Assembly: GCA_016183805.1 (NCBI GenBank)
Contig: JACPDX010000107.1
Span: forward strand, 1 to 39,954
Source of the DNA: Bacteroidota bacterium
GTDB lineage: Bacteria; Bacteroidota; Bacteroidia; Flavobacteriales_E; Vicingaceae
Direction of reading: 5' to 3'
DNA length: 39,954 bases
Shown: piece after piece, positions 1-29,604 of the stretch
How the letters are laid out: each line of letters opens with the position of its first letter
How positions within the stretch are numbered: position 1 is the stretch's first letter
Translations under genes and position numbers: made by a program
The notes under the pieces: model-generated
Seen by the model: the letters and a program-made list of their open reading frames with translations, nothing else
The model's database searches: none
What the model was told of the DNA's origin: nothing

Positions 1-3000
1 GAGGTATATCCTGGTATTGACTGGGTGTGGTACAGCCACCCGCAAAAAGGCTACAAATACGATTTTGTGGTACACCCCGGAGCCGATTACCAACAAATAA
101 AACTACTCTACAAAAGCAAAACACCCATTAAAATTAACCCACAAGGCGAACTGGAACTTTACACCCAATACGGCAACATCAAAGAAAAGACTCCGGTAAG
201 TTTTTATGAAGGCAAAGAAGTAGAAACAAAATTCAAATACAATGAACAAAAACCCATAACCATCAATGGAGACAATGGCTATGAAACAAGTATTTCTTTT
301 CATTTCCCTCAAACCTCAAACCAACCCACTCCCTTTGGGAGGGTTGGGGTGGGACAAACTTCAAACTTAGTAATTGACCCCCAACTCATTTGGGGTACTT
401 TTTATGGGGGAAATGGACTTGATGGTCCAATGTCTGTTGATACTGATAATAATGGGAATGTGTTCGTAGCTGGCTATACTACTGCTCCCAATTTTCCTGT
501 GCAAAGTGGCGGCACTTTCTTTCAGGGAAATAATGCAGGAGGTTATGATGCCTTTATACTGAAATTTGATAACGTGGGTGTTCCGCTCTGGGCAACCTAC
601 TACGGGGGAAACAGCGGAAGTGACGTGAGCTATTCCATCATTACTGACAACAGTGGTAATGTGTTTGTAACTGGCTATACCGGCTCTTCGGATTTTCCAG
701 TGCAGAATGCTAGTACTTTCTATCAGGGAACTACTAATGGAGGAGGTTATGATGCCTTTATTTTGAAATTTAGTAACGCAGGTACCCGTCTCTGGGCGAC
801 ATTTTACGGAGGAGCTGGATATGACTTTAGCAGTTCCATCGTTACTGATAACATTGGCAATGTGTTTGTCATGGGCTATACCGATTCTCCGGATTTTCCA
901 CTTCTGAATCCCGGTGGAAGTGCATTCTACCAAGGTGCAAATGGGGGGGCGGAGGATATCTTTATTTTGAAATTTGATAACTTGGGCAATCGTCTTTGGG
1001 CAACCTATTACGGAGGAAGTGGAAGTGACAGGGGTTATGCCATTACCACCGACAACAGCGGTAATGCTTATATAACCGGAAGAACCAACTCCACCAACTT
1101 TCCTGTTCTGAATCCCGGTGGCAGCACATTCTATCAGGGAACCAATGGAGGAGGGGAAGATGTTTTTATGTTGAAATTTGATAACTTAGGCAACCGCCTT
1201 TGGGCAACTTATTACGGAGGAAGCGGAGATGATAGTGGTTATTCCCTCGCCATTGACAATAGTGGCAATACATTTGTAATTGGAAAAACCAATTCTACCA
1301 ACTTTCCCCTTCTAAACCCTGGGGGCAGCACATTCTATCAGGGAACTAATGGAGGAGGAGAAGATGCTTTTATGTTGAAATTTAACAATTTGGATACCTG
1401 CCTTTGGGCAACCTACTACGGAGGAAGCGGAAATGACTATTATACATTTGGAGGTAGTTACGATAATATGGTTACTTATGATAACCTTGCTATAGACAGC
1501 TGCGGAAATGTGTATGTCTCTTTTGAAACAAATACCAATTCCTTTCCTTACCTGCAAAATTCCTGTGATGCAGGTTATTATGATAATACCTACAATGGAG
1601 GAACTCACGATATATTACTTTCGCTTTTCACTAACACCGGTAGTTTGACGTGGTGTACCTATCTCGGAGGAAATGGGGATGAACGTAGATCTCCTTTAGC
1701 AGTAGATGCCAACAACAACCTTTTTGTGAGCGGAGAATGGACAACAGTGAGCAACTCCGCCACCTACCCTGTAACCGACCTTGGAGGAGGAGCATATTAT
1801 GACCCTACCTTTAATGGGGGAAGTGATGATGGGTCTATGATGAAGTTTTGCAGCAATGCCTGTATATGCTCTTCATCTGTCGGATGTGACCCCTGCCCCC
1901 CAACAGGAAGTAGCACATCTCCATCTATCTGTCTAGGTGACAGTTTGTATGCAGGAGGAGCATGGCAAACCGCTGCCGGAACCTATTATGATACGCTTGT
2001 AAATTCCTGTGGCAGCGACAGCATCATTACCACCAACCTAACGATAAACCCAACCCCAACAGGAACAGACGTACAAACAGCTTGTAATTCTTTTACATGG
2101 ATAGATGGAAATACCTATACTGTAAGTACCAATATCCCTAAAGACACCCTCTCAGCAGCCAATGGTTGTGATAGTATTGTTACGCTTAATTTAACCATTA
2201 ACACGTTTGTATCTGGTACAGATGTAATTACTTCGTGTACACCAATAGTTTGGATAGATGGAAATACCTATTCAGCAAGTACCAATACACCCTCCGACAC
2301 CATAATAGGTGGATCGGTTAATGGCTGTGATAGTGTAGTTACTTTAAATTTAACCATTAACACATTGGTAACAAATACCGATGTACAAACTGCTTGTAAT
2401 TCTTACACGTGGATAGATGGCAACACCTATTCAGTAAGCACCAATACACCTACATTTACTATTGTAAGTGGTGCATCCAACGGTTGCGATAGTGTAATAA
2501 CCTTGAATTTAACTATTAATGCTGCTACTACTTTTACTCAAACTTTTGTGGAGTGTCAAGGATTTTCTATAACTGTAGGAAGCAATGTATATAACACATC
2601 AGGCATTTTTACAGATACCTTAACCACTTCAACAGGTTGCGACAGTATAATAACTACAAACTTAACCATTACGGCTTCTATAACAACAACCAATATATTT
2701 AACAAATGTGAAGGGTTTAGTGTAACCGTAGGGACAAATACATATACTACTACAGGTATGTTCATAGATATAATAAATAACTGCGACACTGTTGTAACCG
2801 ATTTAACAATTAGTAATGCTGACAGTTGCAAACAGTCTATTTTTATTCCTAACGTATTTTCTCCTAATGGAGATAATCAAAATGATGTATTTATTGCCCT
2901 ACTAGTCGGCTTGGAATTAGAAAGTCTAAAAATTTATAACCGTTGGGGCATTTTATTGTTTGAAACAGAAGATGTTAATGAAGGATGGAATGGTAAAACA

Positions 3001-3105
3001 ACATCAGGGAATGACGTTTCAGATGGTACTTATTTTTTTATTTTGAATTACATAAACAACGAAGAAAAACAAGTTGAAACAGGTACGTTAATGTTGCTTA
3101 GATAA
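1..3105 (+). CDS. T9SS-secreted SBBP beta-propeller protein with type B sorting domain (5' partial)
   Basis: The reading frame is open from base 1, so the N terminus lies outside the window. By comparison with the paralog at 3384 about 190 residues, including the signal peptide, are missing. Residues 1 to about 118 are the end of a DUF7948-like domain. Residues about 125-620 hold seven SBBP propeller blades, each marked by WATYYGG-like and ITDNSGNVFVTG-like motifs. Residues about 640-930 are Cys-containing repeats ending in GCDS..TLNLTI, three canonical and three divergent. The last 90 residues are a gliding-type (type B, CHU_C) sorting domain with PNVFSPNGDNQNDVF, IYNRWG and a W.GK motif. 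It should be exported by the T9SS and act at the cell surface; its ligand cannot be inferred. Compared with the paralog it carries an in-frame palindromic repeat at 329-354. No clear terminator follows, and the AT-rich 278 bases before the next gene show no feature I can name. Confidence 0.9.
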   Translation, partial: EVYPGIDWVWYSHPQKGYKYDFVVHPGADYQQIKLLYKSKTPIKINPQGELELYTQYGNIKEKTPVSFYEGKEVETKFKYNEQKPITINGDNGYETSISFHFPQTSNQPTPFGRVGVGQTSNLVIDPQLIWGTFYGGNGLDGPMSVDTDNNGNVFVAGYTTAPNFPVQSGGTFFQGNNAGGYDAFILKFDNVGVPLWATYYGGNSGSDVSYSIITDNSGNVFVTGYTGSSDFPVQNASTFYQGTTNGGGYDAFILKFSNAGTRLWATFYGGAGYDFSSSIVTDNIGNVFVMGYTDSPDFPLLNPGGSAFYQGANGGAEDIFILKFDNLGNRLWATYYGGSGSDRGYAITTDNSGNAYITGRTNSTNFPVLNPGGSTFYQGTNGGGEDVFMLKFDNLGNRLWATYYGGSGDDSGYSLAIDNSGNTFVIGKTNSTNFPLLNPGGSTFYQGTNGGGEDAFMLKFNNLDTCLWATYYGGSGNDYYTFGGSYDNMVTYDNLAIDSCGNVYVSFETNTNSFPYLQNSCDAGYYDNTYNGGTHDILLSLFTNTGSLTWCTYLGGNGDERRSPLAVDANNNLFVSGEWTTVSNSATYPVTDLGGGAYYDPTFNGGSDDGSMMKFCSNACICSSSVGCDPCPPTGSSTSPSICLGDSLYAGGAWQTAAGTYYDTLVNSCGSDSIITTNLTINPTPTGTDVQTACNSFTWIDGNTYTVSTNIPKDTLSAANGCDSIVTLNLTINTFVSGTDVITSCTPIVWIDGNTYSASTNTPSDTIIGGSVNGCDSVVTLNLTINTLVTNTDVQTACNSYTWIDGNTYSVSTNTPTFTIVSGASNGCDSVITLNLTINAATTFTQTFVECQGFSITVGSNVYNTSGIFTDTLTTSTGCDSIITTNLTITASITTTNIFNKCEGFSVTVGTNTYTTTGMFIDIINNCDTVVTDLTISNADSCKQSIFIPNVFSPNGDNQNDVFIALLVGLELESLKIYNRWGILLFETEDVNEGWNGKTTSGNDVSDGTYFFILNYINNEEKQVETGTLMLLR
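329..354. repeat. Short palindromic repeat (CCCTTTGGGAGGG type) inside a coding region
   Basis: The 26 bases contain the palindrome CTCCCTTTGGGAG followed by GGTTGGGGTGGGA. A second copy lies at 18080-18105 and differs at one base. Similar sequences are, from memory, common dispersed repeats in Bacteroidota. Here it is translated as TPFGRVGVG inside the first beta-propeller protein, where the paralog has an unrelated short linker. Confidence 0.8.
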
Positions 3106-3383: not shown

Positions 3384-6300
3384 ATGAATCCATTCTTTTA
3401 TAACAAACCTAAGCAGTCAAAACAAGTAAACAGATTTATGCTTACAGTTACTGTCGTTACAGCTATTTTGATGCTCTCCGTAATTACCGTTCGGGCAAAC
3501 AATAACGGTACAGGAAATAATGACCCTGCACTGAGTGCCAAAGCAAAAGAATGGCTTGAAAAAAAGAACGAAAACAACTTTTTGGAAAACCAAGGACAGA
3601 TGATGGATATGAAAGGCATTCCTGTACCCTTTGTCCTCTTCAAAGCCGGAGCACCAGGGTTAAACCTGTGGATTACCGAAACCGGTACTATCATGCAAAC
3701 CTTGCATTTACGCAGAGAACCTATACCCGAAAATGAACTGACTGAACGAGATAAAGAAAAAACCAAAAAAACGGGAAAACCCAAAACAAAAAAATATTTC
3801 GACTGGGAGCGAATAGACGTAGAACTGAAAGGAGCGAACATTCAAAAAGAAAACATAATTAAAGAAGGAGCTAGTACTACTGATTTTAATTTCTTTTACG
3901 GTCATTGCCCCGATGGAATTTATGGTGCAAAAGAATACGAGAAAATCACCATTAAAGAGGTATATCCCGGTATTGACTGGGTGTGGTACAGCCACCCGCA
4001 AAAAGGCTACAAATACGATTTTGTGGTACACCCCGGAGCCGATTACCAACAAATAAAACTACTCTACAAAAGCAAAACACCCATTCAAATTAACCCACAA
4101 GGCGAACTGGAACTTTACACCCAATACGGCAACATTAAAGAAAATACACCAATAAGTTTTTACGAAGGCAAGGAAATAGAAACAAAATTCAAATACAACG
4201 AACAAAACCCCATCACCATCAATGGAGATAATGGCTATGAAACAAGCATTTCTTTTCATTTCCCTCAAACCTTAAACCTTGAATCTCGAACTTCAAACTT
4301 GATAATTGACCCTCAACTCATTTGGGGTACTTTTTTTGGAGGGACCTCGTATGAGGGCCCGATGGCAATTGACACCGATGCCAACGACAATGTGTTTGTA
4401 ACGGGGTATCTCGGTTCATCGGATTTTCCTGTGCTGGATGCGGGAACCTATTTTCAGGGAGCTTATGCTGGAGGTAATGATGTCTTTATTCTAAAATTTA
4501 ACAATGTAGGCGTTCCCATTTGGGCTACTTATTACGGAGGAAATGGGACTGATCATGGTTATGGAATTGCCACCGATGCTAGTGGCAATGTGTTTGTAAC
4601 TGGATATACCAATATGTCCCCCACTTTTCCTGTGCAGAATGCAGGCACTTATTTTCAGGGAGCTAGTGGTGGTTTTGAAGATATTTTTATTCTGAAATTC
4701 GACAATGCTGGAAACCGACTTTGGGCTACCTTTTACGGAGGAAATGGAGATGAGAGTTTTGATGGCTCTTCCATTGCCACCGATGCTAGTGGCAACGTGT
4801 TTGTAACGGGAAATACCTCTTCCACCACTTTTCCTGTGCAGAATGGCGGCACTTTTTTTCAGGGAGCCAATGCTGGAGCTACTGATGCTTTTATTTTGAA
4901 ATTTGACAACCTCGGCAATCGCCTTTGGGCTACTTATTATGGAGGAAGTGGGTTTGATTTTGGTTTTGCCATTACCACCGATAACAGCGGTAATTTGTTT
5001 GTAACAGGGGCTACTGGTTCAGGAGATTTACCAGTGCAGAATGCAGGCACTTATTTTCAGGGACCTAGTGGTGGAGATGCTTTTATTCTGAAATTTGACA
5101 ACCTTGGTAACCGCCTCTGGGCAACCTATTACGGTGGAAGCTTAGCTGATGGAGGCTATTCCATCGCCACCGATAACAGCGGTAATTTGTTTGTAGCAGG
5201 TCTAACTAGTTCCATCGATTTACCGGTGCAGAATGCCGGTACTTTCTATCAGGGAACAAATGGAGGTGGTGATGACGCTTTTATTCTGAAATTTGACAAT
5301 GTAGGTAATCGGCTTTGGGCTACTTATTATGGAGGTAGTGGGGTTGAGACGTTTGGTAGTTCTGATAACTTAGCAATAGATAGTTGCAACAATGTATATC
5401 TGAGTTTTGGAACAACTTCCACTAATGTATTAACACAAGCTCCTTGTGATGGAGGATATTTTGACCCCACATATAATGGGGGAGCACATGATATTTTACT
5501 TTCCCTTTTTACCAACACTGGTATCCGACTTTGGGAAACTTATCTTGGGGGAGATGGAGATGATTTTCGTTCTCCGCTTGCAGTGGATAATTCGGGGAAT
5601 CTTTTTGTTTCAGGAGAATGGACATTTGTTACCAGCTCCGCCTCGTGTCCTGTAACCAATCCTGGAGGTGGGGCTTATTATGACGGAACATTTAATGGTG
5701 GTGATGATGACGCATTTATGATAAAATTCCTCACCAATTCCTGTATATGTTCTTCCTCTACATCCACAGGATGTAGTACAGGCACAGATGTTATTACATC
5801 CTGTATATCTATTACTTGGATAGATGGAAATACCTATTCAGCGAGTACCAACACACCAACCTTTACTATTGTTGGTGGTGCTGCTAATGGCTGTGATAGT
5901 ATCGTTATCTTAAATTTAACTATTACTGCTGCTGTTACAGGTACTGATATTATTTCATCTTGTGATAGTTTAACTTGGATAGACGGTAACACATATTTAG
6001 CAAGTACCAATACACCAACCTTTATTATTGTTGGTGGTGCTGCTAATGGCTGCGATAGTATTGTTACACTAAATTTAACCATTAACTCGTTTGTATCAAG
6101 CATAGACGTACAAACCGCCTGCAACAGTTTTACTTGGATAGATGGTAACAACTATACCGCAAGCACCAACACTCCAACTTTTGCCATCGTTGGCGGAGCA
6201 ACTAACGGTTGTGATAGTATAATAACACTGAATTTAACAATCAACTCTTTTGCTTCTGGAACAGATGTTATTACATCCTGTACACCCATCACTTGGATAG

Positions 6301-7850
6301 ATGGCAACACCTATTCAGCAAATACCACTACTCCAAAAGATACTATTATTGGAGGAAGTTTTCAAGGTTGTGATAGTATCGTTACTTTAAATCTGACAAT
6401 TAGCCTCGCTGCTACAAGTACTGATATAATTACTTCTTGTTCTCCTATAACGTGGTTGGACGGAAACACTTATTCGGCAAGTACCACAACTCCAACCTTT
6501 ACTATTGTTGGTGGTGCTGCTAATGGCTGCGATAGTGTCGTTACCTTAAATTTAACTATTACTGCTGCTGTTACAGGTACTGATATTATTTCATCTTGTA
6601 CACCTATTACTTGGATAGATGGAAATACTTATTCAGCGAATATCAATACTCCAACCTTTACTATTGTTGGTGGTGCTGCTAATGGCTGCGACAGTGTCGT
6701 TACCTTAAATTTAACTATTACTGCTGCTGTTACAGGTACTGATGTTATTACATCTTGTACACCTATCACTTGGATGGATGGAAATACCTATTCAGCAAGT
6801 ACCAGTACTCCAACCTTTACTATTATTGGTGGTGCTGCTAATGGCTGCGACAGTATCGTTACTTTAAATTTAACTATTACTTCTGCCGTTACAGGAACAG
6901 ACATTATTACATCTTGTACGCCCATTGTATGGATAGATGGAAATACTTATTCAGCAAGTACCAGTACTCCAACCTTTACTATTATTGGTGGTGCTGCTAA
7001 TGGCTGCGACAGTATCGTTACCTTAAATTTAACCATTACTTCTGCCGTTACAGGAACAGACATTATTACATCTTGTACGCCCATTGTATGGATAGATGGA
7101 AATACTTATACAGCAAGTACCAGTACTCCAACCTTTACTATTGTTGGTGGTGCTGCTAATGGTTGCGATAGTATAGTTACCTTAAATTTAACGATTATTA
7201 CACCAAACACCACAACTAATGTTTATAATGAATGTGAAGGATTTAGTGTAACGATCGGCACTAATACCTATACCACCACCGGAGTATTTACTGATATCAT
7301 CAACAATTGCGATACGGTAATCACCAATTTAACTATCAATTCTGGGCCTCAACTTACTCTTGTCAAAGTAGATGATAATTGTGAAGAAAGTATAGGAAGT
7401 ATCGTTGCTAACGTAGTTTCTTCCAACCCTCCAGTAACCTACATTTGGAATACAGGAAGTACCAATTCTACTATCAGTAATTTACCTGTGGGAGTCTATT
7501 CTGTAATTGTAAACGATGGTTCGGGATGTGCAAAAGCCGACACCATAAATATAGACGACTTAAAAATCGATTGCGACTACTTTGTATATCTGCCCAACGC
7601 CTTTACACCCAATGGAGATGGTAACAACGATATATTTTTTGTACGTGGAAAGGGCATAGAAGCCCTATCCGTAAAAATTTACAACCGCTGGGGCAACAAA
7701 GTGTTTGAAATAAATGATGTAACCCAAGGTTGGGATGGAACATACAAAGGGTCAGAACAAAATACGGCTGTTTTTGTGTATGTATTAGAAGTTACCTTCC
7801 AAAACGGAAAAATAATTACAGAGAGCGGTGATGTGGAGTTGATAAGATAA
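3384..7850 (+). CDS. T9SS-secreted SBBP beta-propeller protein with tandem 53-residue repeats and type B sorting domain
   Basis: Complete 1488-residue paralog of the preceding gene. A signal peptide ends near residue 39 (VRA/NN). A DUF7948-like region spans about 55-305, seven SBBP propeller blades about 312-786, and nine canonical plus one divergent 53-residue repeats about 799-1319 (TGTD.I.SC..ITWIDGNTY through GCDSIVTLNLTI, with paired Cys). A SprB-like repeat (about 1321-1393) precedes a type B gliding sorting domain from about 1399 (PNAFTPNGDGNNDIF, IYNRWGN, GWDGTY). It is predicted to be T9SS-exported and surface-bound, possibly an adhesin. The porP gene starts 30 bases downstream. In Flavobacterium johnsoniae SprF, a PorP relative, serves export of the type B protein SprB, so the neighbour is plausibly the cognate partner. 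Repeat units 7-9 are nearly identical in DNA, indicating recent expansion. The ATG at 3384 fits the signal peptide. Confidence 0.92.
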   Translation: MNPFFYNKPKQSKQVNRFMLTVTVVTAILMLSVITVRANNNGTGNNDPALSAKAKEWLEKKNENNFLENQGQMMDMKGIPVPFVLFKAGAPGLNLWITETGTIMQTLHLRREPIPENELTERDKEKTKKTGKPKTKKYFDWERIDVELKGANIQKENIIKEGASTTDFNFFYGHCPDGIYGAKEYEKITIKEVYPGIDWVWYSHPQKGYKYDFVVHPGADYQQIKLLYKSKTPIQINPQGELELYTQYGNIKENTPISFYEGKEIETKFKYNEQNPITINGDNGYETSISFHFPQTLNLESRTSNLIIDPQLIWGTFFGGTSYEGPMAIDTDANDNVFVTGYLGSSDFPVLDAGTYFQGAYAGGNDVFILKFNNVGVPIWATYYGGNGTDHGYGIATDASGNVFVTGYTNMSPTFPVQNAGTYFQGASGGFEDIFILKFDNAGNRLWATFYGGNGDESFDGSSIATDASGNVFVTGNTSSTTFPVQNGGTFFQGANAGATDAFILKFDNLGNRLWATYYGGSGFDFGFAITTDNSGNLFVTGATGSGDLPVQNAGTYFQGPSGGDAFILKFDNLGNRLWATYYGGSLADGGYSIATDNSGNLFVAGLTSSIDLPVQNAGTFYQGTNGGGDDAFILKFDNVGNRLWATYYGGSGVETFGSSDNLAIDSCNNVYLSFGTTSTNVLTQAPCDGGYFDPTYNGGAHDILLSLFTNTGIRLWETYLGGDGDDFRSPLAVDNSGNLFVSGEWTFVTSSASCPVTNPGGGAYYDGTFNGGDDDAFMIKFLTNSCICSSSTSTGCSTGTDVITSCISITWIDGNTYSASTNTPTFTIVGGAANGCDSIVILNLTITAAVTGTDIISSCDSLTWIDGNTYLASTNTPTFIIVGGAANGCDSIVTLNLTINSFVSSIDVQTACNSFTWIDGNNYTASTNTPTFAIVGGATNGCDSIITLNLTINSFASGTDVITSCTPITWIDGNTYSANTTTPKDTIIGGSFQGCDSIVTLNLTISLAATSTDIITSCSPITWLDGNTYSASTTTPTFTIVGGAANGCDSVVTLNLTITAAVTGTDIISSCTPITWIDGNTYSANINTPTFTIVGGAANGCDSVVTLNLTITAAVTGTDVITSCTPITWMDGNTYSASTSTPTFTIIGGAANGCDSIVTLNLTITSAVTGTDIITSCTPIVWIDGNTYSASTSTPTFTIIGGAANGCDSIVTLNLTITSAVTGTDIITSCTPIVWIDGNTYTASTSTPTFTIVGGAANGCDSIVTLNLTIITPNTTTNVYNECEGFSVTIGTNTYTTTGVFTDIINNCDTVITNLTINSGPQLTLVKVDDNCEESIGSIVANVVSSNPPVTYIWNTGSTNSTISNLPVGVYSVIVNDGSGCAKADTINIDDLKIDCDYFVYLPNAFTPNGDGNNDIFFVRGKGIEALSVKIYNRWGNKVFEINDVTQGWDGTYKGSEQNTAVFVYVLEVTFQNGKIITESGDVELIR
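5778..7340 (+). repeat. Tandem 159-base (53-codon) coding repeats
   Basis: Nine canonical units and one degenerate unit run head to tail with an exact 159-base period; for example GTTACAGG recurs at 6729, 6888 and 7047. The units at 6888 and 7047 are nearly identical at the nucleotide level. Each unit encodes one Cys near its start and one in GCDS, a typical Bacteroidota surface-protein stalk repeat. Copy number is likely to vary between strains. Confidence 0.9.
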
Positions 7851-10223: not shown

Positions 10224-10284
10224 AAGAATTTATCTGCTTTAAGTTAAAATCAGTATTTTCGTGGTGTGAAAATAGTTGATGAGG

Positions 10285-10325
10285 TTAGGAGTTTATAAGG
10301 TTGTTAGTAATCTCTAAACTCCTAA
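10285..10325. repeat. 11-base inverted repeat in the gldA leader
   Basis: TTAGGAGTTTA at 10285-10295 is the exact reverse complement of TAAACTCCTAA at 10315-10325, separated by 19 bases. The right part continues into CTTATAACC, partly related to TTTATAAGGTT on the left. It lies 26 bases before the gldA ATG. No T-tract follows, so it is not a typical terminator. It may be a dispersed repeat or a leader hairpin. Confidence 0.55.
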
Positions 10326-10350
10326 ACTTATAACCATCTAAACGATAAAA

Positions 10351-15219: not shown

Positions 15220-15236
15220 TTAATAATCGAAATAAA

Positions 15237-15278
15237 AACAACAAAGCCCACGGTTTAAAATGTGGGCTTTGTTGTTTT
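15237..15278. terminator. Bidirectional terminator between exbD and the aldehyde dehydrogenase gene
   Basis: AACAACAAAGCCCAC (15237-15251) and GTGGGCTTTGTTGTT (15262-15276) form a perfect 15-base stem with a 10-base loop, flanked by A and T runs that serve both strands. It touches the stop codon of the minus-strand gene at 15277, so both converging transcripts can end here. Confidence 0.92.
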
Positions 15279-17308: not shown

Positions 17309-18064
17309 ATGAAGAAAATCTTTTCTTGGATTTGGAAAATTTGCCTTAAAGGTTGTCTTTGGTTTTTAGCAATAAGTATAGTTTTAGTGATATTGTTTAG
17401 ATGGATTCCCATCTACATTACTCCATTAATGGTTATCCGTTGTGTCGAACAAAAAATGGATGGTAAAGCCATGAAATTAAAAAAAACATGGAAACCATTG
17501 GAAGAAATCTCTCCCGATTTACAACTGGCTGTAGTTTGCTCTGAAGATCAAAATTTTTTAAAACATCATGGTTTTGATTTTGGTGCCATCGAAAAAGCCT
17601 TAAAACATAACGAAAAAAGCAAGAAAAAACGTGGAGCAAGTACCATTAGCCAACAAACCGCTAAAAATGTTTTTTTGTGGCCCGGCAGAAGTTGGATAAG
17701 AAAAGGTTTTGAAGTCTATTTTACTTTTTTAATAGAAACGATATGGAGCAAACAACGCATCATGGAAGTTTACTTAAATATTGTTGAGCTTGGAGATGGT
17801 ATTTACGGAGCAGAAGCTGCTTCTCAAGAGTTTTTTAATAAATCGGCTATTAAAATAAGCAAACAACAAGCAGCAACCCTAACCGTTGTATTGCCTAGTC
17901 CTTTAAGATATAATGCCAAACGACCGGGTAATTATTTAAATGGTAGAATAAGTTGGACGCTTCAACAAATGCGTTTTTGGGGTGGAAAATTAGACTACGA
18001 CAAAGAAAAAAAGAAAGAAGAGAAAGAGAAGAAATCCGAAGCCAGAAGACGGAAGTCCGAATAA
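17309..18064 (+). CDS. mtgA: Monofunctional biosynthetic peptidoglycan transglycosylase
   Basis: 251 residues. MtgA is an inner-membrane family-51 glycosyltransferase that polymerises lipid II into glycan strands in the periplasm. One N-terminal membrane helix (about 13-34) is followed by the GT51 core: the catalytic Glu in SEDQNFLKHHGFD, then RGASTISQQTAKNVFLW, IETIWSKQRIMEVYLNIVE and GIYGAEAASQEFF, all intact. The last ~23 residues, a Lys/Glu run ending EARRRKSE, are not part of the family. They are encoded by A/G-rich simple sequence plus GAAG..CCGAA-type repeat sequence running straight into the palindromic repeat at 18080, so the tail looks like repeat DNA that moved the stop codon. Confidence 0.95.
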   Translation: MKKIFSWIWKICLKGCLWFLAISIVLVILFRWIPIYITPLMVIRCVEQKMDGKAMKLKKTWKPLEEISPDLQLAVVCSEDQNFLKHHGFDFGAIEKALKHNEKSKKKRGASTISQQTAKNVFLWPGRSWIRKGFEVYFTFLIETIWSKQRIMEVYLNIVELGDGIYGAEAASQEFFNKSAIKISKQQAATLTVVLPSPLRYNAKRPGNYLNGRISWTLQQMRFWGGKLDYDKEKKKEEKEKKSEARRRKSE

Positions 18065-18079
18065 CTAATAACTATCTCC

Positions 18080-18105
18080 CTCCCTTTGGGAGGGCTGGGG
18101 TGGGA
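18080..18105. repeat. Short palindromic repeat (CCCTTTGGGAGGG type) between convergent genes
   Basis: Second copy of the 26-base element at 329-354, 25 of 26 bases identical, here in the 49-base gap between the converging mtgA and DUF2480 genes. The palindrome could help end transcription from both sides. Confidence 0.8.
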
Positions 18106-18113
18106 ACTACCAA

Positions 18114-18617
18114 CTATCTTTTATACAACGGCACTGCCGAACAAGCTTCTCCAAACATAATTGTTTTAGCATATTCTTGCAACCGATAAGTAAAATCTAC
18201 AAAAACAGTTTCAGGAATAGGAAATTTACCACAACCTTTAACTATTACTCCTTTATCTTGGTAAATAGAAAAATCGTGAGCATTTAATATGTCTTCAAAA
18301 ATAGATTTTTCCAAATCTGTTGTATTTCCTAAAACAACCTTTTTGGCAAAAGGTTTAAGTTGTGAAGAAACCAACATGTATGCCCACAAAGGAACAATAG
18401 CATCAGAAGAACAAACAATTGCAACATACTTATCTTGGTAAATTTTCCAATCGTTATTTTTAATAAATTCTCTGAATGTTTTTTCAATTAATACAAAACC
18501 TTCATGAAGACACGCTGCAATATCAAAAATAACTCGATCACCTTGTGGATAAAAATCGTCGAGATTAATTTGTACTAAGCCACTTTTTTCTACTCTATTT
18601 ACAATATCGTTTTCCAT
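18114..18617 (-). CDS. DUF2480 family protein
   Basis: 167 residues from ATG 18617. An in-frame ATG at 18638 exists, but family members as I remember them begin MENxIVNRV, matching the 18617 start. The protein is soluble, with SGLVQINLDDFYPQGDRVIFDI, LHEGFVLIEKTFREF and a central AIVCSSDAIVPLWAYMLV. The C-terminal half has VIVKGCGKFPIPETVFVDFT followed by MFGEACSAVPLYKR, with several Cys. It is a widely conserved, uncharacterised cytoplasmic protein of Bacteroidota. It is divergent from the dehydrogenase gene at 18692 and convergent with mtgA. Confidence 0.85.
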   Translation of the reverse strand: MENDIVNRVEKSGLVQINLDDFYPQGDRVIFDIAACLHEGFVLIEKTFREFIKNNDWKIYQDKYVAIVCSSDAIVPLWAYMLVSSQLKPFAKKVVLGNTTDLEKSIFEDILNAHDFSIYQDKGVIVKGCGKFPIPETVFVDFTYRLQEYAKTIMFGEACSAVPLYKR

Positions 18618-18648
18618 GTTACCCTCAAAATTACTCACTTTAATTTAT

Positions 18649-18691: not shown

Positions 18692-20248
18692 ATGTCAGAT
18701 ACATTAACAACTCAAAGCTTTGGAATTAAAAGTGTTTTAGCAGAACTAGGAATAAAAGAAAATAATTTTGGTGCCAGCACAGGATTAAAACATAAAATGA
18801 CCAATGGTAAAAAAATTGAATCGTTTTCTCCGGTTGACGGAACATTAATTGGAAGTGTAAATGCTGCAACTGTCTCAGATTATGCTGCTGTAATGCAAAC
18901 TGCCGAAGAGGCTTTTAAAGTTTGGAGACTAATGCCGGCTCCAAAACGTGGCGAAATTGTTCGTCAGATGGGCGATGAATTACGTAAATACAAAGAACCA
19001 CTTGGTAAATTAGTTTCTTACGAAATGGGAAAAAGCCTGCAAGAGGGTTTGGGTGAGGTTCAGGAGATGATAGATATTTGTGATTTTGCTGTTGGTTTAT
19101 CTCGTCAGTTATACGGTTTAACCATGCACAGTGAACGTCCAAAACATAGAATGTACGAACAATGGCACCCGTTTGGAACAATAGGAATTATTTCTGCTTT
19201 CAACTTTCCTGTAGCGGTATGGAGCTGGAATGCTGCATTGGCTTGGGTTTGTGGTGATGTTTGTATCTGGAAACCTAGTTCGAAAGTGCCGATGTGTGCC
19301 ATTGCTTGTCAAAATATTATTGCTGATGTGTTAAAACGTAACAATGTGCCGGAAGGGGTTAGCTGTGTAGTTATTGGTAACGAATCAGGCGATTTAATCA
19401 ACAACGATAAACGAATACCTTTGGTTTCTTTTACTGGTTCTACAAGAATTGGACGACACGTATCTAAAACGGTTGCAGAACGTTTTGGAAATACCATTTT
19501 AGAATTAGGTGGAAACAATGCTATTATTGTTTCTGAACATGCTGATTTAAATATGGTATTGGTTGGTGCTGTTTTCGGAGCCGTTGGAACTGCCGGTCAA
19601 CGTTGTACTTCAACACGACGATTAATCATCCACGAAAGTGTTTACGATAAAACCATTAACGTATTGAAAAATGCTTACGGACAATTAAAAATTGGAAACC
19701 CTTTAGATTCAAATAACCACGTAGGTCCATTAATTGACAAAGGTGCTGTTCAGGATTATTTAAATGCCATTGAAAAGGCAAAATTAGAAGGTGGAAAAAT
19801 ATTAGTTGAGGGTGGAGTTTTAACTGGTGAAGGATACGAAAGCGGATGTTATGTAAAACCTTGTATTGTAGAAGCTAAAAATGAATTTAACATCGTACAG
19901 GAAGAAACTTTTGCACCGATTTTATATGTAATGAAATATAAAACCATTGAAGAAGCTATTGCCATGCAAAATGGAGTTCCACAAGGATTGTCATCAGCAA
20001 TTTTTACCAACAGTATGCGTGAAATGGAATTGTTCCTCTCTCATGCAGGTTCAGATTGCGGAATAGCCAATGTTAATATTGGAACATCAGGAGCTGAAAT
20101 TGGTGGTGCCTTTGGTGGTGAAAAAGAAACTGGTGGCGGACGTGAATCTGGTTCTGATGCATGGAAAGCATATATGAGAAGACAAACCAACACCATTAAT
20201 TATTCCGATAGCTTGCCTTTAGCTCAAGGAATTAAGTTTGATTTTTAA
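18692..20248 (+). CDS. amaB: ALDH7-type aldehyde dehydrogenase, probable L-aminoadipate-semialdehyde/piperideine-6-carboxylate dehydrogenase
   Basis: 518 residues, an NAD-dependent aldehyde dehydrogenase of the antiquitin (ALDH7) type. The catalytic Cys is at 305 in GTAGQRCTSTRRL, the ALDH7 hallmark. The general-base Glu is at 271 in LELGGNNA, and the cofactor site has SAFNFPVAVWSWN, KPSSKVP and FTGSTRIG. The C-terminal AFGGEKETGGGRESGSDAWK is also ALDH7-like. Family members oxidise alpha-aminoadipate semialdehyde in lysine breakdown and pipecolate use. No lysine aminotransferase lies alongside, so the pathway rests on family resemblance. A terminator-like palindrome follows 17 bases after the stop. 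Confidence 0.9.
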   Translation: MSDTLTTQSFGIKSVLAELGIKENNFGASTGLKHKMTNGKKIESFSPVDGTLIGSVNAATVSDYAAVMQTAEEAFKVWRLMPAPKRGEIVRQMGDELRKYKEPLGKLVSYEMGKSLQEGLGEVQEMIDICDFAVGLSRQLYGLTMHSERPKHRMYEQWHPFGTIGIISAFNFPVAVWSWNAALAWVCGDVCIWKPSSKVPMCAIACQNIIADVLKRNNVPEGVSCVVIGNESGDLINNDKRIPLVSFTGSTRIGRHVSKTVAERFGNTILELGGNNAIIVSEHADLNMVLVGAVFGAVGTAGQRCTSTRRLIIHESVYDKTINVLKNAYGQLKIGNPLDSNNHVGPLIDKGAVQDYLNAIEKAKLEGGKILVEGGVLTGEGYESGCYVKPCIVEAKNEFNIVQEETFAPILYVMKYKTIEEAIAMQNGVPQGLSSAIFTNSMREMELFLSHAGSDCGIANVNIGTSGAEIGGAFGGEKETGGGRESGSDAWKAYMRRQTNTINYSDSLPLAQGIKFDF

Positions 20249-20265
20249 ATTTATTTAGAAATATT

Positions 20266-20302
20266 AGACCTAACAGGTTTCAAAAACCTGTTAGGTCTTT
20301 TT
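20266..20302 (+). terminator. Terminator / Bacteroidota GACCTAACAGG palindrome
   Basis: AGACCTAACAGGTTT (20266-20280) and AAACCTGTTAGGTCT (20284-20298) form a perfect 15-base stem with a CAA loop followed by a run of T. It functions as an intrinsic terminator for the dehydrogenase gene. The same palindrome is, from memory, a frequent dispersed element in Bacteroidota genomes. Confidence 0.9.
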
Positions 20303-20327
20303 GTTACAATAAAAATTAGTAACTTTA
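20301..20327 (+). promoter_or_regulatory. Candidate promoter of the DUF3108 gene
   Basis: TTG at 20301-20303 and TAACTTTA at 20320-20327, spaced by 16 bases, approximate the Bacteroidota TTG / TAnnTTTG pair with one mismatch. It overlaps the T-tract of the preceding terminator. The leader to ATG 20383 would be about 50 bases. Confidence 0.4.
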
Positions 20328-29551: not shown

Positions 29552-29604
29552 GTTGGAAGACCGAAGTAGGAAGATGGAGGCACTTCGGACTTCGGTCTTC
29601 CAAC
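29552..29604. terminator. Inverted repeat between the M23 gene and rlmN (terminator-like)
   Basis: GTTGGAAGACCGAAGT (29552-29567) pairs perfectly with ACTTCGGTCTTCCAAC (29589-29604) around a 21-base loop, starting at the peptidase stop. No T-run follows. The GAAGACCGAAG wording resembles the repeat sequence at the end of mtgA, so it is likely a dispersed repeat that may also act as a terminator. Confidence 0.6.

Follow-up and report, generated by a model that had tools for sequence, protein, structure and literature searches.

Dispersed palindromes and 7-bp satellites as a probable source of translated linker DNA in a DUF7948 beta-propeller protein and its relatives in the Bacteroidota

Introduction

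Rickettsia palindromic elements (RPEs) are described, in excerpts of two reports, both between genes and in frame within unrelated conserved genes; a guanylate kinase bearing such an element was translated and active, with an altered affinity for its substrate (PMC10969869, PMC2229807). The same excerpts give the elements a length of 105-150 bp and terminal inverted repeats. Palindromic repeats have also been reported in Wolbachia, going by the title of one paper. A second described system is the heptanucleotide repeat TAACTGA of Beggiatoaceae, Cyanobacteria and five Bacteroidetes which, in the excerpted account, is mostly intergenic and sometimes translated, with the reverse orientation giving the heptapeptide LSVISYQ (PMC4679880). 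According to that excerpt, no forward frame of TAACTGA is free of stops, and where the repeat is translated this is mostly at the ends of proteins. REP/RAYT systems also consist of short dispersed palindromes, mostly intergenic, which are mobilised by RAYT (Y1) transposases, and an extract of their description places a GTAG- or CGTC-type tag beside the palindrome (PMC3733652). A miniature inverted-repeat element (MITE) with a minisatellite in Porphyromonas gingivalis, likewise known here from an extract, combines an inverted-repeat element with tandem repeats in a Bacteroidota genome (PMC4596501).

The locus described here resembles the RPEs in that its palindrome is mostly intergenic (14 of 19 copies) and gene-internal in two unrelated genes, where it is read in the same frame, and in that insert-free homologues exist. 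It differs in its shorter palindrome (~34-70 bp), in the use of several frames and both orientations, and in the participation of tandem heptads. By description, RPEs would appear to be the closest precedent in mode of action. With the heptanucleotide repeats it shares tandem 7-bp units in excess over shuffled sequence; in contrast to TAACTGA, the units are stop-free, differ by genome, and are found within conserved enzymes and, repeatedly, in a single linker. Searches of an open-access library that lacks most subscription journals listed no description of translated palindromes or heptads in Bacteroidota enzymes, which is weak evidence of absence. We consider it highly probable that the linker studied here is translated repeat DNA, and that it is one case of a recurrent process in which dispersed palindromes and heptad satellites are captured in frame where the protein tolerates them.

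Results

The window and its two paralogous genes

The window analysed is a stretch of 39,954 nucleotides that comprises the entire contig C37 (JACPDX010000107.1) of a 109-contig, 3.47 Mb assembly of a Vicingaceae bacterium (GCA_016183805.1; G000 below). Its features are collected in Table 1. A Pfam search placed PF25778, PF06739 and PF13585 above cut-off in both proteins of the paralog pair. The type IX secretion domain and two homologues of named origin, a Flavobacteriales and a Bacteroidia MAG, point to the class Bacteroidia. The first frame is open for 1034 codons, the insert included, and TPFGRVGVG is read in frame between SFHFPQTSNQP and QTSNLVIDPQL. The initial annotation, in which a palindromic repeat was held to be translated within a beta-propeller protein, is borne out on this point.

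Table 1. Positions of the paralog pair, its linkers and the palindrome copies in the window.
Feature	Position	Strand	Evidence
DUF7948 + SBBP beta-propeller repeats + CHU_C (type IX secretion) protein, 5' end missing at contig start	1-3105	+	ORF list, Pfam
Left heptads CAAACCT CAAACC, adjoining the palindrome	310-322	+	Sequence; below the length of the 16-base heptad pattern
Translated palindromic repeat CCAACCC-A-CTCCC-TTT-GGGAGGGTTGGGGTGGGA, peptide TPFGRVGVG	321-354	+	Approximate matching, translation, fold
Right heptads CAAACTT CAAACTT, peptide QTSNL	355-368	+	Sequence; below the length of the 16-base heptad pattern
Second DUF7948/SBBP/CHU_C protein, paralog of 1-3105	3384-7850	+	ORF list, Pfam
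Paralog linker, five degenerate heptads, peptide QTLNLESRTSNL, without palindrome	4266-4300	+	Sequence; period-7 score 14/17
Intergenic palindrome copy, 25/26 bases identical	18080-18105	+	Approximate matching, alignment

The paralogs share 95.1% identity across the 309 nt that precede the linker, and the palindrome difference between them is consequently judged to be recent. The end of another contig, C15, is formed by 51 bases identical to window positions 1-51, and C15 carries the matching N-terminal part. Thus, the N-terminus of the window's first gene probably lies on C15. The 51-base overlap falls within the duplicated gene; the assembly probably broke at the paralog pair. Other inverted repeats, unlike the palindrome and mostly between listed ORFs, were seen at window positions 29552-29604, 15235-15278, 20246-20318 and 10279-10331.

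Copies of the palindrome in the genome and in relatives

A 29-base query (positions 325-353), allowing up to 3 mismatches, had two matches in the window, whereas 100 shuffles gave none. The second site lies between ORFs 17309-18064(+) and 18114-18638(-). It had been taken for the same 26-base repeat as the linker copy; the copy is indeed present, while its identity is not complete, a single base separating 329-354 from 18080-18105. Genome-wide (3.47 Mb), the 18-base pattern CCCTTTGGGAGGGTTGGG returned 19 copies at up to 2 mismatches, against none for the reversed control. The palindrome spans ~34 bp in the window and ~60-70 bp in full copies.

Copies were classed as genic or intergenic with ORFs defined simply, by an ATG start and a minimum of 90 aa. 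On this basis, 14 of the 19 are intergenic and two are gene-internal, namely the window linker and a PD40/OmpA protein (assigned by Pfam) on contig C15; the remaining three fall at ORF ends, two as C-terminal ends of antisense ORFs (L001, L014) and one as a possible N-terminal extension (L011). The PD40/OmpA gene and the window gene are unrelated, and both read the repeat in the same frame from nearly identical DNA (PPIGRVGVGQTSN). On C15, a 243 kb contig, the translated copy lies ~4.5 kb from the end, and the two-hairpin form of the palindrome is translated as NPPLTSRVLGKGNLPPIGRVGVGQTSNFKLETSN. The tripeptide TSN at the linker junction of the window gene is heptad-encoded, and TSN follows the palindrome in the C15 protein too. 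These matches uphold the proposal of an in-frame capture of an intergenic repeat between domains, to which a contribution of heptads has to be added. For the N-terminal half of the PD40/OmpA protein, the non-self matches listed (25 genomes) all start at residue 117 or beyond, and no insert-free ortholog was found among them. Heptads adjoin palindromes elsewhere in the genome as well (L008, L011 and L016). With its flank, the palindrome is stop-free in two of three forward and two of three reverse frames.

Half of the intergenic copies (7 of 14: L002, L003, L007, L009, L010, L016 and L017) share a position, the 18-base core ending 19-34 nt before a same-strand ATG with its G-rich end facing the gene. 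This placement may reflect a role in the 5' leader, or insertion that is tolerated there. Separately, a half-repeat at G000 C5:3694 (L147) is translated in the opposite orientation, as AILPSREGSGG, within a response-regulator/SpoIIE-type protein. Gene-internal matches at 2 mismatches in L082, L084, L086, L088 and L092 were judged to be due to chance and were left out.

Palindrome matches were carried by 13 of 40 relatives, at 13 places in the same-genus genome G002 and at one to three places elsewhere; in the same search of 40 relatives none was found in G001 or G003. The control pattern matched two of the relatives, once each.

Heptads in and around the linker

The linker of the second paralog had been described as unrelated to that of the first. 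This description does not hold, as the linker consists of five CAAACTT-like heptads (CAAACCT-TAAACCT-TGAATCT-CGAACTT-CAAACTT), the kind that brackets the palindrome in the first gene. A 16-base CAAACTT pattern was found at 67 genome sites at up to 2 mismatches, the window tracts being too short to count; the reversed pattern gave 38 sites, although it is nearly the same heptad and hence no clean control. At up to 1 mismatch there were 11 distinct places, all of which were inspected: seven are intergenic and four coding, the latter being the C15 protein together with L036, L045 and L052 (these three described by eye). By eye, the CAAACTT heptads of L045 and L052, two different G000 proteins, encode the end of signal-peptide-like starts (TLNFKLQTSNLQAQD and TLNFELQTSNLYAQD).

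Because 7 leaves a remainder of 1 on division by 3, all three frames of a heptad array encode one and the same heptapeptide, and if one of them lacks stops then so do the others. Heptad arrays should therefore be unusually easy to tolerate. CAAACTT (QTSNFKL) is stop-free in one orientation only, and all seven coding cases (both window linkers, C15, L036, L045, L052 and L245) lie in that orientation. The unit GGAACCC (EPGTRNP) is stop-free in both orientations, in which coding cases number 7 and 4. A perfect ACTTTAA array is closed by stops, and the linker of relative G120 accordingly relies on variant units.

DUF7948 linkers across homologues

To compare homologues across the linker, 60 distinct linkers were collected from the sampled sequence with a profile built from 12 DUF7948 sequences. 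The strand that flanks the linker and the IDPQL motif are conserved around it. The motif GRVGVG occurred in a single linker of the 60, that of the window's first gene, and the same peptide encoded by different codons in none, so that the outcome named as refuting in the initial annotation did not arise.

Period-7 structure was scored as the best self-match out of 17 in a 60-nt window, with upstream windows of the same genes as controls. Of the 60 linkers, 6 reached a score of at least 13/17, whereas none of the 418 control windows did so (Fisher 3e-6; a post hoc test, framed after the linkers had been viewed). Four of the six come from relative G029, and the remaining two are a G120 linker (13) and that of the window's second paralog (14). 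The window's first gene, in which the palindrome interrupts the heptads, scores 10/17; 50 of the 60 linkers fall below 11.

The DUF7948 linker of homologue L153 (66% identity) contains a different palindrome, translated as SPLPSRGVGSE. This palindrome is uncommon in its own fragmented assembly (one match at up to 3 mismatches; in another count, 4 against 3 for the control), and its standing as an abundant family of that genome is unsupported by these counts. The linker of L154 (48% identity) has neither palindrome nor heptads, and L154 and the second window paralog both lack the palindrome insert. In L192 the linker shows an 8-bp unit by eye. Heptads were also present in the linkers of L309 and L311, DUF7948 genes of G029 by Pfam that were found by the heptad pattern and stand outside the 60; further repeat-like peptides upstream of the linker seem to be present in these two (LPAGKAG and LPGRAGEG). 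AlphaFold2 modelling of the DUF7948 region from a 4-row alignment gave a mean pLDDT of 43. From the alignment gaps, we infer that the linker is a surface loop.

Repeat units by lineage

Relative G029 uses GGAACCC as the unit in its L187 linker. This pattern has 46 overlapping sites (~32 places) in G029, none in G000, two in G044 and three in G120, the control giving 0, 0, 0 and 1, respectively. Inspection of 12 of the ~32 G029 places, best matches first, put 11 in ORFs and one between genes. The 11 comprise four DUF7948 linkers, four SprB-type repeat proteins (an assignment for which Pfam was run on one of the four, L300), DnaG, MetH and one C-terminal end. GGAACCC is thus mostly coding in the inspected places and may spread between genes.

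At up to 1 mismatch in the sampled sequence, the CAAACTT pattern gave two arrays in 400 kb of G000 and none in 334 kb of G029, 141 kb of G044 or 61 kb of G120, all of which are small numbers. Period-7 arrays of any unit, compared with the mean of first-order shuffles, numbered 25 against 2.6 in G000 (400 kb), 25 against 0.2 in G029 (334 kb), 4 against 0.2 in G044 and 5 against 0.0 in G120, whereas 200 kb of E. coli K-12 yielded none against a shuffle mean of 0.4. The G000 count leans high, since its sample is a non-random set of contigs already seen as matches; 6 of its 25 arrays are CAAACTT-type, like the tracts already searched for. By the same comparison of array counts with shuffles, periods 8, 10 and 11 were weaker than period 7. 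The arrays of G000 are 22 intergenic and 3 in ORFs; those of G029, 16 and 9, with two of the nine in PriA; those of G044, 2 and 2. All five of G120 lie in ORFs, which says little at 61 kb sampled.

The distribution of GGAACCC bears on an alternative in which replication slippage creates the heptads locally, at sites that tolerate them, and the palindrome alone is dispersed. For bacterial heptanucleotide repeats, a preference of slippage for 7 nt has been proposed (Mrazek 2007, as cited in an excerpt of PMC4679880). Set against it, the one unit recurs in DnaG, MetH, SprB-type repeats and several DUF7948 genes of G029 and is absent from G000, a pattern that suggests copying between sites. We regard birth by slippage as unlikely, and capture of dispersed units of both kinds as the better reading.

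Repeat DNA inside conserved proteins of relatives

Conserved enzymes of the relatives were found to hold inserts at the position of the repeat peptide when aligned with homologues of known structure. GuaA of G120 carries a net insert of 22 residues relative to 1gpm. In PriA of G029, 34 unaligned residues stand against 2 in 8fak (net ~32), and the insert contains inverted heptad arrays that pair. HutU of G033 has two such inserts relative to 6uek, of 41 residues against 8 and 48 against 7 (net ~33 and 41). The GC content of insert and gene is 64 and 44% in GuaA and 57 and 42% in PriA, while the two HutU inserts stand at 55 and 62% against 51%. In DnaG and MetH, heptads lie where the alignment has a few extra residues. 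ValS, BioA and IcmF hold repeat DNA with no clear net insertion on alignment.

Folding energies were compared with those of windows drawn from the gene concerned, and these windows may overlap the insert. Only 1 of 200 such windows folded as low for GuaA, PriA, the second HutU insert and the C15 protein; the figure was 2 of 200 for L147 and 5 of 200 for L094. Folding was less exceptional for the first HutU insert (20/200), L097 (30/200) and IcmF (9/200).

Folding of the palindrome and candidate movers

Three full copies of the palindrome fold with z-scores of -2.1, -7.5 and -8.7, whereas the window copy folds no better than its own shuffles (z -0.66); an RNA role for the window copy is therefore unsupported. 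The full copies tested pair end to end when folded. A repeat variant with CCCC...GGGGTGAGT ends was seen in L137, L140 and L142 of G000, and two of these, L137 and L142, form the very stable three-way junctions (z -7.5 and -8.7). Rfam gave no match at gathering score in nine copy-bearing loci, and a known structured RNA was rejected on this basis; L137, L140 and L142 were also without a match.

Captured palindromes might instead have been kept as mRNA hairpins acting in pausing, stability or processing, as opposed to merely tolerated peptides. The two three-way junctions are in keeping with this, as is the position of seven of the 14 intergenic copies shortly upstream of a same-strand ATG. The score of the window copy argues against it, as do the plain heptads that fill the same linker in other genes. 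Retention as a hairpin seems to us improbable, and somewhat more so than slippage; for the window linker we retain capture as tolerated coding sequence.

G000 contains one PF01797 (Y1 transposase) gene (L117, C9:8796-9140). In contrast to REP/RAYT systems, this sole Y1 gene is not flanked by the palindrome, which is absent at up to 4 mismatches from its 3.3 kb locus; a Y1/RAYT transposase was accordingly rejected as the mover. By eye, other short palindromes lie near L117, perhaps a separate REP family.

Discussion

In this genome and in its relatives, we propose, genes take up dispersed repeats of two kinds: a GC-rich palindrome (~34-70 bp) and 7-bp satellites in tandem. A repeat would persist where the frame in which it is read contains no stop, the net change in length is a multiple of three and the site tolerates other residues. 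The stretch from the last strand motif of DUF7948 to the IDPQL motif ahead of the propeller would act as a recurrent acceptor. In the window, the palindrome sits within the heptad-encoded linker of one paralog, and may either have arrived in that copy or have left the other after duplication. The repeats would have been copied in, with transposition, template switching or gene conversion as candidate routes. The repeat families, the open in-frame reading across them, their recurrence and the inserts at repeat positions relative to solved homologues are direct observations. Proteins with translated repeats would presumably be made, with near-neutral effect. The interpretation in the initial annotation is supported, and from the sequences it would extend to palindrome and heptad satellite DNA together, with captures recurring in the linker and in other proteins.

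Two remaining alternatives concern the reality and the age of the insert. With the first gene truncated at the contig start and its paralog nearly identical (95.1% over 309 nt), the insert might stem from a collapsed paralog or from misassembly at the edge of the contig. We consider this very improbable given the 1034-codon frame open across the insert, the near-identical repeat translated on C15 and the similar cases in other genomes. That the peptide is an old, conserved DUF7948 feature whose likeness to an intergenic repeat is coincidental can practically be dismissed: the flanking strand and IDPQL motif are conserved, but GRVGVG is confined to one linker of 60 with no homologue among them encoding it in other codons, the genome has 18 other copies of the repeat, one of them in the same frame of an unrelated protein, and a short-period amino-acid repeat cannot yield a 7-bp DNA period.

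In-frame capture at tolerant sites may have a more general form, which we put forward tentatively and at less than even odds. Lineage-specific heptad satellites and palindromes could constitute a standing supply of frame-neutral linker peptides that overwrite certain permissive sites again and again, most of all the DUF7948-propeller junction of type IX-secreted surface proteins, each lineage writing in its own repeat dialect. The linker would then diversify fast by repeat copying as opposed to point mutation. It is predicted that lineages with different satellites write the same linker as different peptides, and the DUF7948 family partly shows this.

The setting, larger genomes of another phylum than that of the RPEs and a second class of repeat that, once open in one frame, is open in all, suggests that protein insertions arise more widely through in-frame recruitment of repeat DNA. 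Inserts such as QTSNFKL, EPGTRNP and PPFGRVGVG in enzymes of this kind are suggested to be repeat DNA and not functional motifs. New protein segments thus seem to arise recurrently from repeat DNA in these bacteria.
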